Origin: Dermatophagoides farinae
Lineage: Eukaryota > Arthropoda > Arachnida > Sarcoptiformes > Pyroglyphidae
Reading direction: 5' to 3'
Length of the DNA stretch: 64,000 nt
Assembly (NCBI RefSeq): GCF_024713945.1
Contig: NC_134684.1
Span: 2,709,001 to 2,773,000, forward strand
Positions 57,020-63,811 of the stretch are shown here, in pieces. Within the stretch, counting starts at the first letter, position 1. Each line of letters opens with the position of its first letter. A program made the translations under genes and the position numbers. The notes under the pieces are model-generated. The model saw only the letters and a list, made by a program, of their open reading frames with translations, did no database searches and was not told where the DNA came from.

Positions 57020-58950
57020 TTGTTGTTGTTGTTTCTGTTGTTGTTGTTGTTGTTGATGCCGTTGGTATTGTTGGTCGGCCGTTGTGGACGATTGTTTGTC
57101 CTGTTTTTGCTACCATTATCATTATTATTGTTTGTGGATGGCTGAAATGTAACAATTTCATTTGCTGTAATAATTGTATTTGGTTTTCTCATAATGGCCG
57201 ATAATTGTCGACGTTTACTATTATTCAATTAGAAATATAATATTCATAATAATTAATTTTCCATTACAAACAATACACATACCTTTCTGTATATCCATTC
57301 ATATAATTAATTTGAATCTCATCAACAATAATGTTTTGTTCTTTTTTCTTTCCAACTGCATTGCCAATTAATTTTTTAATTCCGGATTTTTGTTCAACTT
57401 TGTCTTGTAGTTGAGCATCAATTCTTATTATTCGTCCTAATGATTTGAATGATTTATGTAAATAGGTATATTGTTGATTTGGTTCAAATCTATGTTCCAT
57501 ATTAATATTTTCGGCAAAATCGTTTCGTAAAGAACCAGTTAAATTCATTTCCAAACGTCCATTATAGCTATCGAAATTATTGCCTGTTTTTACCTAATAA
57601 AAATTCAATTTGTTGAAAATTCACAACAACAACAATAACAATGCCACATTTACCCTGATTTGATAGAAAAAATATGAATATGGCATTTCGTTTCGTGTGT
57701 CTACAAAATAGACAATTGGTGATGTCGATTCTCGTGACGGTTTTTGTCTTTGCCAATAATCAAACCATCGTCCAAATGGTTTACAATCATCTGAACCATC
57801 CCGACAAATTCCACATTTACCAGCTTCAAAATCCGTATAATTATCACAACGATAAGCATTGGTTTCAAAATTATCAAACATTTGTTCTTCATAAGTCATC
57901 AATAAATATGCACGTCTATGTGAACAGGCAATAGCGTCTGATAAACCTTCGGCAAGACCATTTATTAAAACACCCGGTATACCATGTACTGGTTCACAAC
58001 CTGGTACAAAAAAAATTAAAAAATTAAATTAATTAAAAATTAATTAAATTTACCTGGTTGGTTTTCGCCACCATTTGGTACAAAGCTATAATGACCAACA
58101 GGTGTTAATATTCCTAATCCATCCAAAACATTGATGCCTCCATTTGTATGTACCGAGAGAACCAATTGTGCATCATTCAGATTCAGACGATTCTCTACAC
58201 TTACATCACTGAATGCTGGACCAGCTGGATCAAGACCAATTATTAATCGTGCTTTTGGTTGCCGTAAACGTTTTCCAGTGAAACCGGCAGCTTGTGCACC
58301 TAAACTATGGCCAATAATTGTAAAATGATCATTGGTTGTCTGATAAACCTGATTCAATCGATTAATGAATGATGCTACCACAGCGCCAACTACTCGTACA
58401 TTAGCTGCTGCTTGTAAATAATTTGGAGATGTTTTTGATCCACGACTCCAATCGACTATGATTATATTTAAATCACAAGATTTCATCGACAAAACATGAT
58501 CTTTTAGATTGCCCATCCAATTGAATTGATTATAAAAATCCGTATAACCATGTATTATGACAATTGTACGATTTCTTGGTTCATAGTTCATGTTTCTTAT
58601 TTCATTTTCAATAACATCATATCTCAACACTGTTGGATTATATCTATCTTGGCAGGAAAATAAATTAAAAGTTACATTCTGTTTTTCCGGTGATTCAGGA
58701 TAATGTCCAATCTGATTTTTTGATGGCCAATCTTTATGAATTTCAGATTTATTAAAACAACCATATTCACCAAAACAGACTGGCCCTTAAAAAAAAAATT
58801 CAGTCAGATTAATAATGAATGACAAAAGTTCAAATTCAAACATTTCAAAACATTACCTGTATCTTCTGGTATTGTTGAACACACATGGATGATTAAAATA
58901 AAAAGGACAAAGGTTAATAAGCTCATATTTTGTAACATTTTCATTTTCAT
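56926..58950 (-). CDS. secreted pancreatic-lipase-family enzyme with PLAT domain and Asn-rich tail (lipase 2)
   Basis: Five exons on the minus strand: 58950-58857, about 58786-58054, 58000-57654, 57593-57283, 57217-56926, about 591 residues. The start ATG at 58950 opens MKMKMLQN and a hydrophobic signal core. The triad is Ser about 192 (GHSLGA), Asp about 217 (GLDPAGPAF) and His about 303 (CSHRRAY). The 23-residue lid between two cysteines is conserved. Exon 4 holds most of the PLAT domain. The final exon adds about 96 residues that are polyasparagine encoded mainly by AAC with AGC/AGT interruptions, absent from lipase 1. Compared with lipase 1 it has two extra introns, of 53 and 60 bp. Like lipase 1 it is presumably an extracellular triacylglycerol lipase. 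Confidence 0.88.
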
Positions 58951-59464: not shown

Positions 59465-60078
59465 TCAATTTTCATAATTTTCATTTCGATAAAATTTTTC
59501 CTGATATTTTTCAATTTGTGTTACACGTTCACGGCGATTAATTAACGGATTAAATTTGATAATTAATAATAATAATGCCATTACATGATAGAATATGACC
59601 AAAACGATCAACATTATTATGGCCATAAAAAATGTTTCTTTTGTATTCGGTATCATCAATAATTCCAATATTGATTGTATCTCATATGGTTGACAACGTT
59701 CGCCACCAAAAACAAGATAAAAATTTGCATTATTCAAATAATGTATTGGTGAAAATGTAGCCAAAATTTTCGTTATTAATGGCATTCGTATGACTGGATT
59801 GAAAAAATTCGATGTCATTACAAAAATAGCGATGCAAAAGAATAGACAAATCATCAATGGAATGAAAAGACCATTGGTTAATAGTACAACAATATGACTA
59901 ATTGCATGGAATATATTGCCACCTAAAAATAATACGAAAACTTTCCAAAAATAAGATCCGTTTGGTGAATTATCGGCATTGAGATCAATAATGTAAATGT
60001 ACATCATCATAATCGGAATCAATGGTATGGTTTCGAAAATGAATTTCATTGCATAGAAAGCACCACTACTATACCAGC
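59465..60078 (-). CDS. ABCG exon 4: rest of TMD2
   Basis: It begins GWYSSGAFYAMKF, parallel to GWYSLGTFFWAFQ in TMD1, and includes several hydrophobic helices and a Cys-containing extracellular loop (GGERCQPYE). It ends with a charged cytosolic tail and the stop at 59465-59467. Confidence 0.88.
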
Positions 60079-63000
60079 CTAAAAAAAATGGATAAATTCA
60101 ATTCAATTAAGAATGTATGGATAAAAAAAGAAAAAAATGAATGAATGAATGAATAAACGTAAATCCGATCAAAGTTATTATAATCTCATAGTTTGGCCAT
60201 TTTTTGATCATTGATTTGAGCCAATATTCATCAAACACATAAAGACATAATAAATAAATAAACATACCATTACGATGTTCGCTGGCAAAGTACTTTAATT
60301 CATTTCCGAATGCAAACATTGATTGCATCGATATAACAAAACCAATTACAGCCACAGGGATTAATATGAAATTGATATTGTTGACTATCTGGATCTCTTC
60401 TAATATTTTGGCATCGGATTTATTCGTACAGTATGATTGAAAATCGTCTTCAATATTTATACAACCATTTGGTTCAGCAATGGATTTGTCAAAAACATTT
60501 ACTGTTAATATTCCGGTCATAAAATATACGAATAAAAATGTAAGCCATTCTTTCCATTGATGTCGAATTGTATACATGCAATAACGTTGACATAATATGG
60601 CAATTGATAGTAATGAAAATCTTGTACGATTATATTGTACACCTTCTGGAATAGCAACAGTATCGATTAGTAATTCTTTATCCGTTTGTTTGATTTGTTT
60701 TTCAGTTTGTATCACTAATCGTTGTACAATTGGATTCATATAACCAGTACAAGAATATTTGATCAATGTTTCAATCGGAAAACGTGTATAAAATGATGAA
60801 TCGGGTATATCTTCTAGATAATTTTTGATTTGATTTGGTGGCCCAGAAAATATACAAACACCATCACAAGCAAGAACATAACATTGATCAAACATCATTA
60901 ATTGATCGGTATTTGGCTGATGTATACTGGCAACGATTGCAATATCTTGATGTCGATAAACAAATTGTTTAAGACATTCAATGACTAGATGAGCTGAATT
61001 GGAATCCAAACCACTAGTCGGTTCATCGATACAGATTAAATTTGGCATTCGTAATGATGTTAATTCTAATGCAAGAGCAATACGTTTTCGTTGACCACCT
61101 GAACAATTCTGCACTAATGTAGTGGCTGCATCGGTCATGTTCAATTCTTTCAATAGATTCCAAGCAAGTTTTTCATGATCAATTTTTTGTTCTTCATGAC
61201 AATTTTTTAATTTTGAAGCATAAATCAGACTTTGCATTGTAGTAAGTCCAGGCATTAAATGATTTGATATTTCTTGCGAAACAAAACATGTACGTAATTG
61301 TTGAAATTTACTAAGATAGAACATTGTTGATTTTGGTATGCGGATTTTTTTACGGCCATTCAACACTTTCAATAATGTTGTTTTACCGGAACCAGATGGT
61401 CCCATTAATGCATTTAAGCTGCCAAAATGAATCTGTCCATTAAGATTTCGCAATATTAATCGTTCCGAAGACAATTGTGAATGTAATGATTTTGGATGTT
61501 CACGAATTTCATAGATAGAATTGGATTCAAATAGGCTTAAATTTCTCCAACCAATTATATAACGTTGATTATAAAAGCTATTCTGCGGTTTTTCGAGACA
61601 TTCAGATTTGAAAACAAAATTATCATTTACATTGTTGATCGGATTAATTTCAATGCTTGTTGAATAATTATAATCGATTGCAATAAATTTCGATGAAAAT
61701 GTAGATGTATTTTTACCGTTCTTCAATTGAATGCTGTTTGTTGGGAATCGATATTTATAATACATAACAATATAGGTGATGAAACGTGATATGATGCAAT
61801 TAATAACCGATGGTAATAGATTCCAGTAAATCAAATCTGGATTGATAAACAATTTTTTCAATTGTAACGATTCTTCACTGTCAATATCACAACGATCAAT
61901 ACCATAGAATGTATAATAAAGACCATGAATGATTGATCGATATCCAAACATTTGAGCAATGACCAATAAAAATGGCCGATTCATTATTTCCAATGATGAA
62001 TATAAACCACTGAGCATAGTTATTATGACGAATAAAATTGTCAATGCTGTAGCCATTAATTGGACATTCTTTGCATATATAACACCCCATACTTGTGCAT
62101 ATGATTGCATTAATACTGTCAATAACCATACGAATAGAATTTGATGTGCAAATCGATTCCAGTTAATCATATAGTTATCCAGTATATAATATTCCGATAG
62201 TACATAGCCAATAAATGCTTGATTGAATGCAAAAAAGGTCAATTCAATCAAATGAATAATTTGGAATGCCCAGAAAAAAGTACCCAAACTATACCATCCT
62301 ATTAATGTGATGAAATTACCTTTTAATAAATATTTCAGAAACAATACAATACTTACCATTTTTATGTTCATTACAGAATACTGAACTCAATTCAACGACC
62401 AATATGGAACTTAGACCAATCGAAACTAATGTCGTTGTAATGGCCATTGCTAGCTGATAAATCATAAATGATCCATCAATCAGTGATTCTTTTAATTTTT
62501 CATTACAAGTATGATTAAATTGTTCCATCGAAACAATGTGACATCCACGTGATTTGATCATATCTTCATAGCTGGTATAACAGACAAAACCAACACAGAT
62601 TCCTTGTAGTAATAAATAACAAAGAAAATATCGAATATCGGCAACAAAAATTAATCGAAATAATCGTTGTAATTGTATAAGTAGATCGTCGAAAGAAAAT
62701 AATTTCGGATAACGTGCAATTCCATTTGGATTCCATTCATAGTTTTGATCATTGAAATTTTCTTCCAATTTAAAGCGACTAGCTTCTTCTTGTAGAGTAT
62801 TGTCAGCTAAATCACGTACCAATTGGTCATCAATACCTTTGAAAAAATATTTATTTATCTTTTTTTGGATATTATCAAATTGAAAAAAAACTTACCATTA
62901 TTTGCAATCCTTAAATATTCTTCGATTGGAGAGCGATCATCAGCTATTCGATGTTGTTGTACACATTCTAAACGGAATGACATTTCAGCCGGTGGACCAG

Positions 63001-63811
63001 AGAAGATACAAACGCCACCTTTGGCCAATATATAAAGATTATCAAATAGACTTAAGATTTCTGAACTAGGAGCATGTATCGAAACAATGATAGTTATTGG
63101 ATTATGATTGGCCAATTTTCGAAGGCATCCCATAACAACCAAAGCAGCTTCACTATCTAAACCGGTAGTTGGTTCATCCACAAATAAAAACGGCGGTTTT
63201 GATTCATAAGCCATTAGTTCTTGTGCAATGGCTACACGACGTTGTTGGCCACCCGAACATTGAATGAAAGGTGTACGTAATACTTTTGGATCGAGCATCA
63301 ATTCTTCGATAGTTGATTCGATATGAGCTTTAGCTTTATGACGATTTTCATATAGATTTTTAAAACGAAATGAATAATAAAGAATTTCTTCAACCGTAAA
63401 CCGGCCAAATATGATTTCATGAACAGATTGAGGAACAAAACTAACTAATGGTACACGGCTATTTCCTGGTATAATCATTCTATTTAAATAGATTCCAGAA
63501 TCTGAGGAAATGTTTTGAGTGGATACATTTCCAGTAAGACATTTAATCAATGATGTTTTGCCCGCACCAGATGGACCAAGTAAAGCATTCATACTATGAT
63601 GACGAACAAAACCATTCAAACGTCTTAAGATAACTTTACGTTGTTTAATTGGTAGCCAACTGCGATCATTTTCAAAATTCCATTCATCAACATCATATTG
63701 AAGATTTTTCCACAATAATGATACCGGTTGATGAATCGATCTGAATGATGAATGTTGTATTTGATTATCATTTTGTTGTCGATGATCATCATCATCTAGA
63801 CCATTGGCCAT
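59465..63811 (-). CDS. full-length ABCG-type ABC transporter (NBD-TMD-NBD-TMD)
   Basis: Four exons on the minus strand: 63811-62896, 62836-62357, 62319-60268, 60078-59465. All three introns are phase 1, the frame is open throughout, 1353 residues. The order nucleotide-binding domain then membrane domain, twice, is ABCG-type. NBD1 has Walker A GPSGAGKTS (79-87), Gln128, signature CSGGQQRR (185-192), Walker B FLFVDEP and His246. NBD2 has Walker A GPSGSGKTT (772-780), Gln814, signature CSGGQRKR (871-878), Walker B LICIDEP and His932. Both sites look catalytically complete. Each membrane domain has about six hydrophobic segments. Exon 3 alone runs from mid-TMD1 through NBD2 into TMD2, so this is not two neighbouring genes. 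Animal ABCGs are normally half transporters. Substrate unknown; lipid or xenobiotic export is typical of the family. Confidence 0.9.
60268..62319 (-). CDS. ABCG exon 3: rest of TMD1, NBD2, start of TMD2
   Basis: A 2052 bp uninterrupted exon. It begins NFITLIGWYSLG (TMD1 helix 3), passes four more hydrophobic segments and a roughly 100-residue linker, then NBD2, and ends at ASEHRNG, the repeat of the EHKNG element. The exon boundary therefore falls at the same point in both halves. Confidence 0.9.
62357..62836 (-). CDS. ABCG exon 2: linker and first membrane helices of TMD1
   Basis: It continues from NBD1 through RDLADNTLQEE to hydrophobic segments around FLCYLLLQGICVGFVCYTSY and IGLSSILVVELSSVF, ending in EHKNG, the conserved ABCG element after helix 2. 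Confidence 0.88.
62896..63811 (-). CDS. ABCG exon 1: NBD1
   Basis: The start is taken at ATG 63811 (MANGLDDDDHRQQN). An upstream GTG in the same frame at 63844 is not a eukaryotic start. The exon contains the whole first ATPase domain and ends AATG before GTAAGT. Confidence 0.88.

Follow-up and report, generated by a model that had tools for sequence, protein, structure and literature searches.

The analysed stretch of the Dermatophagoides farinae genome (64,000 nt of contig NC_134684.1, hereafter the window) encodes a full-length ABCG transporter on its minus strand, between positions 63811 and 59465. In this protein, two units consisting of a nucleotide-binding domain (NBD) followed by a transmembrane domain (TMD) are joined in the order NBD1-TMD1-NBD2-TMD2. 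The window gene is one member of a family of about 30 full-length ABCG genes in this mite, which very probably descends from an ABCG1-type half-transporter gene that was duplicated and fused.

The gene model comprises four exons and 1347 codons including the stop codon, contains no internal stops and yields a single protein of 1346 amino acids (aa), which bears out the initial annotation of two complete ABCG halves in one reading frame. Exon 1 (62896..63811) provides the start codon and NBD1 with its Walker A, signature, Walker B and H-loop motifs, and exon 2 (62357..62836) encodes the end of the NBD1 region and the first part of TMD1, terminating at EHKNG. The 2031-bp exon 3 (60268..62298) spans the remainder of TMD1, the linker, NBD2 and the first part of TMD2, terminating at EHRNG, while exon 4 (59465..60078) contains the rest of TMD2, the C-terminus and the stop codon. 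All three introns have GT-AG boundaries and are in phase 1. Intron 1 (62837..62895; 59 nt) is matched in codon and phase in 5 of the 20 fully modelled paralogues, whereas intron 2 (62299..62356; 58 nt) and intron 3 (60079..60267; 189 nt) interrupt N-G^W-Y in TMD1 and TMD2, respectively, and thus lie at homologous sites, as had been proposed from the two exon ends. The single exon running from TMD1 through NBD2 into TMD2 had also been recognised correctly, except for its length of 2052 bp. That length implies an acceptor at 62320 and a 37-nt intron 2, a candidate that was set aside as the paralogues put the junction at NG^WY. Both acceptors, which differ by 21 bp, keep the reading frame; 62299 is preferred because the junction then reads N-G^W-Y as in TMD2 and because the introns at this site measure 48-70 nt in the 19 paralogues carrying one.

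Strict motif patterns for Walker A, the signature, Walker B and the H-loop were found in both NBDs of the window protein, and the Walker A K, Walker B DE and H-loop H are retained in each. A hydropathy scan (window 19, threshold 1.4, peaks grouped by eye) resolved six hydrophobic clusters per TMD and one additional peak within NBD1, so that each half has the ABCG arrangement of an NBD N-terminal to a six-helix TMD. For the N half of paralogue L042, the predicted fold could be aligned to ABCG structures, with the best VIA-align Z for an ABCG1-type structure; the underlying alignment A4 has one stray residue at position 5 in the exon-2 rows and, in the L039 row, a 60-nt intron read in frame. A start codon between the halves was also looked for. 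Between residue 644, in transmembrane helix 6 (TM6), and residue 764, beside the NBD2 Walker A motif, there is no Met, and a complete second half could therefore not be made from an ATG in the linker.

The N and C halves were each searched against the same genome (62.4 Mb, 22 contigs), which gave 74 and 76 matches, respectively, with only the best candidates (63 of 162 and 69 of 178) being scored. By hand count, an N-half match followed in tandem by a C-half match on the same strand occurs in at least 29 places including the window, with identities of 34-69% for the N half (the window itself aside) and 43-60% for the C half. A further N-like/C-like pair, more divergent at 33% and 39% identity, adjoins a normal member at C3:813470-817121. 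Several full-length ABCG genes are clustered, with an array of six at C3:5613714-5643750, an array of four at C9:2008615-2039538, one of them on the opposite strand, and two more at C9:545941-561549. Of the 29 places other than the window, 20 were modelled whole and 7 in part, the latter from NBD1 up to where NBD2 begins (position 761-780 of the window protein; 1047 in L033), which with the window gives 28 loci in all. Spliced alignment of the window protein produced a four-domain protein of 1289-1358 aa at all 20 whole loci. The passage from the TMD1 NG^WY site into NBD2 proceeds without intron or stop in 28 of the 28 loci read, 7 of them partial, a recurrence that is more than chance. The TMD1 intron occupies the same codon in 19 of the 20 whole loci and in 5 of the 7 partial ones, and the TMD2 intron does so in 19 of the 20, that of L054 lying one codon off. 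L042, the whole locus lacking the TMD1 intron, contains one open reading frame of 1186 aa that extends from NBD1 into TMD2.

The relationships of the two halves were analysed in an NBD tree of 58 rows, consisting of 21 N-terminal and 21 C-terminal NBDs (including those of the frameshifted loci L044, L050 and L054), eight PDB-derived NBDs, those of six half ABCGs of this genome, and two of its ABCH-like NBDs, which were labelled by eye and served as outgroup. The N-NBDs and the C-NBDs, 21 each, form separate clades (support 100/99 and 100/100, respectively) that are sister to one another (100/99). Nearest to them are four half ABCGs of the same genome (97/88), followed by human ABCG1 (97/86), and the PDR C-NBDs fall outside this assemblage. 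A separate TMD tree is of value here, as exchange of sequence among the NBDs seems to have occurred; it again recovered two clades joined at 100/99 (48 rows, no PDR rows, rooted on one half gene). Approximately unbiased (AU) tests rejected a grouping of the N-NBDs with PDR N-NBDs (p 0.0018) and of the C-NBDs with PDR C-NBDs (p 0.0007), and the fusion is therefore independent of that in PDR proteins. Also rejected were the N-NBDs with the mite halves without C (0.016), the C-NBDs with the mite halves without N (0.013) and the N-NBDs with the half gene L007 (0.0002).

The introns point the same way. NG^WY is uninterrupted in five of the six half genes (L001, L002, L003, L006 and L007), and the intron of the sixth, L008, lies three residues upstream and in a different phase. 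Since the phase-1 intron occurs in both halves of the fused genes and is missing in five of the six half genes, its most plausible source is a single half gene that underwent duplication. The likeliest history is duplication of one half-transporter gene, a single fusion and later multiplication; a PDR gene is unlikely to have been transferred. This supports the origin put forward in the initial annotation. The dating of the fusion to within the mite lineage, also put forward there, would rest on a paper about one other mite, Tetranychus urticae, in which 23 of 23 ABCGs are half-size (PMC3724490).

Several observations weigh against this reconstruction. The NBD tree output flags long branches and the reference sampling is small. 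NBD identity discriminates weakly, with the mite half transporters showing 28-35%, ABCG25 32-33% and the PDR C-NBDs 25-30% identity to the N and C sets. The PF01061 match in TMD1 is below the cut-off (22.1 vs 26.9; TMD2, 27.5). L035 has no NG^WY intron and that of L036 is displaced by two codons. Frameshifts were needed in the spliced alignments of L044 (two), L054 (two), L050 (one) and the partial locus L036 (one), and these copies may be decaying genes or assembly errors. Within the linker, nonsynonymous divergence (dN) exceeds synonymous divergence (dS) in one pair, L039/L041 (0.347/0.271). Co-translation of both halves is predicted from the gene models. Furthermore, 'ABCG full transporters' of oyster and shrimp are mentioned, through citations only, in a passage of PMC4247197, and the arachnid median of 3.5 ABCG genes given in a passage of PMC8290562 is far from the number found here.

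Retention of an ancient animal full-length ABCG that was lost in other animals appears very improbable. The N and C halves are indeed well diverged, with a mean NBD identity of 37% within a gene, and the genome search covered one animal genome. Set against such an origin is the position of the fused clade, which adjoins half ABCGs of the same genome. Passages of two surveys likewise report no full-length form in metazoans: half transporters were the only kind of ABCG reported as of 2013, including 23 of 23 ABCGs in T. urticae (PMC3724490), and the full ABCG structure is described as lost in metazoa (PMC4649718).

That the mite acquired a PDR-type full-length ABCG horizontally, from a fungus, plant or protist, and then expanded it is highly unlikely, even with an identical four-domain order. 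Two further findings count in favour of such a transfer and against the duplication and fusion favoured here: among PDB entries, CDR1 has the highest whole-sequence score with either half, and the AU test at 0.05 leaves unrejected the full-length NBDs with the PDR C-NBDs (0.066) or with all PDR NBDs (0.074), so that both halves may have a distant tie to PDR-C-like NBDs. The rank of CDR1 for the C half, however, is the sum of two domains (53.9 and 64.8 bits), each below the single NBD of ABCG1 (104.4 bits). TIGR00955 is the top NCBIfam match for both halves, yet below its cut-off, and exceeds TIGR00956 in each (164 vs 112 and 172 vs 101 bits); the TIGR00956 cut-off of 1959 is hardly reachable with the halves scanned apart. 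The TIGR00955 match, together with the grouping beside human ABCG1 and the mite half ABCGs, places the NBDs closest to ABCG. None of the PDR-specific domains PDR_CDR, PDR_assoc and ABC_trans_N is among the 10 and 13 Pfam families listed for the two halves at E up to 0.1. In fungal PDRs, one of the two ATP sites is degenerate, and the PDR N-NBD compared carries GRPGSGCT, WDNAT and IYQ in place of the catalytic residues that the window protein retains in its first site as well as its second. The gene models share with PDR proteins two NBD-TMD units per chain without the half-by-half kinship, and differ from metazoan half transporters in not being single NBD-TMD polypeptides.

That two adjacent half-transporter genes were misread as one, or separate genes collapsed in the assembly, is just as unlikely: it would suit gene models built from genomic sequence and the AATAAA/ATTAAA hexamers in the linker coding DNA of 7 of 21 loci, the window not among them, and conflicts with the stop-free linker within one exon at every locus read, the long open reading frame of L042 and the absence of Met between TM6 and the NBD2 Walker A region of the window protein.

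Following the fusion favoured here, the two domain types appear to have evolved differently. In the 37 of 210 paralogue pairs with dS under 1, whole-gene dN/dS ranges from 0.21 to 0.62, and the linker is the loosest part of the gene by this measure. Among 37 pairs with a synonymous difference under 0.55, the synonymous difference is lower in NBD1 than in TMD1 in 33 and lower in NBD2 than in TMD2 in 32. Identical runs of at least 25 codons were identified in 24 of the 210 pairs, with the longest run centred in NBD1 in 14, NBD2 in 7, TMD2 in 2 and TMD1 in 1. Examples are L055, L056 and L057, located at C3:5.62-5.645 Mb, with runs mostly in NBD1: an unbroken stretch of 172 codons (residues 172-343 of the window protein) is identical in L055 and L057, whose overall identity is 85%, and one of 152 codons (residues 85-236) is identical in L055 and L056, at 79%. 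Gene conversion, focused on the NBDs, has apparently taken place between paralogues.

We propose that an ABCG1-type half-transporter gene, in which the phase-1 intron at NG^WY was already present, was duplicated head to tail, that the two copies were fused via a coding linker, and that the fused gene multiplied afterwards. The two halves, if expressed as a single chain as the gene models suggest, would fold as a built-in heterodimer. With canonical residues at both ATP sites, ATP binding and hydrolysis could power the export of a putatively hydrophobic substrate, and the combination of strongly conserved NBDs and diverging TMDs would fit one engine serving different substrates. We lean slightly towards a broader interpretation, in which mites re-invented a PDR-like full-length ABCG apart from fungi and plants. 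Both of its ATP sites would work, and in a set of about 30 genes the NBDs would be kept alike by gene conversion as the substrate-handling TMDs diversify, giving an animal an equivalent of the PDR efflux repertoire of fungi.

With a large animal family whose fusion was independent, what is gained and lost by joining the halves becomes testable beyond fungi and plants, and the mite paralogues, alike in their NBDs and divergent in their TMDs, constitute a natural series. As counts of 'ABCG genes' alone do not reveal architecture, the fused form may have been overlooked when mite transporters were catalogued and their handling of xenobiotics was studied. Two genes of Psoroptes ovis are called 'ABC transporter G family member 20' in a passage of PMC12364353 that leaves their architecture unstated. 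In literature searches, the broad ones being partly covered, no title or opening of an abstract described a full-length ABCG from a mite, and no paper combining Astigmata with ABCG was found.

A lipase-like reading frame (GHSLGAQAAG, spotted by eye) closely follows the transporter gene on its downstream side, in the same orientation (window 58040-58786, minus strand). Elsewhere, the genome yields three matches to the Blo-t-5 family (best 2.6e-53), a family that points to astigmatan mites, and 24 matches to cuticle domains.

Among known systems, ABCG1-type half transporters (human ABCG1 and the mite's own L001, L006, L007 and L008) resemble the fused mite proteins in their NBD-then-TMD order, the WY motif after TM2, their position in the NBD tree and the structural match of the L042 N half. 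Being single NBD-TMD chains, they must dimerise, whereas the mite protein unites two differing halves. The PDR transporters of fungi and plants (Pdr5, CDR1) have the same NBD-TMD-NBD-TMD layout, with PDB chains of 1501-1511 aa compared to 1346 aa in the window protein. They result from a separate fusion, their halves not being matched one by one by those of the mite, whose protein also differs in its two canonical ATP sites and in scoring lower with TIGR00956 than with TIGR00955. Another parallel is offered by the full-size ABCD transporters of land plants, which, according to a passage of PMC4649718, likewise represent a late full-size form within an otherwise half-size family; they differ from the mite case in belonging to the ABCD family and in being confined to plants in that survey.
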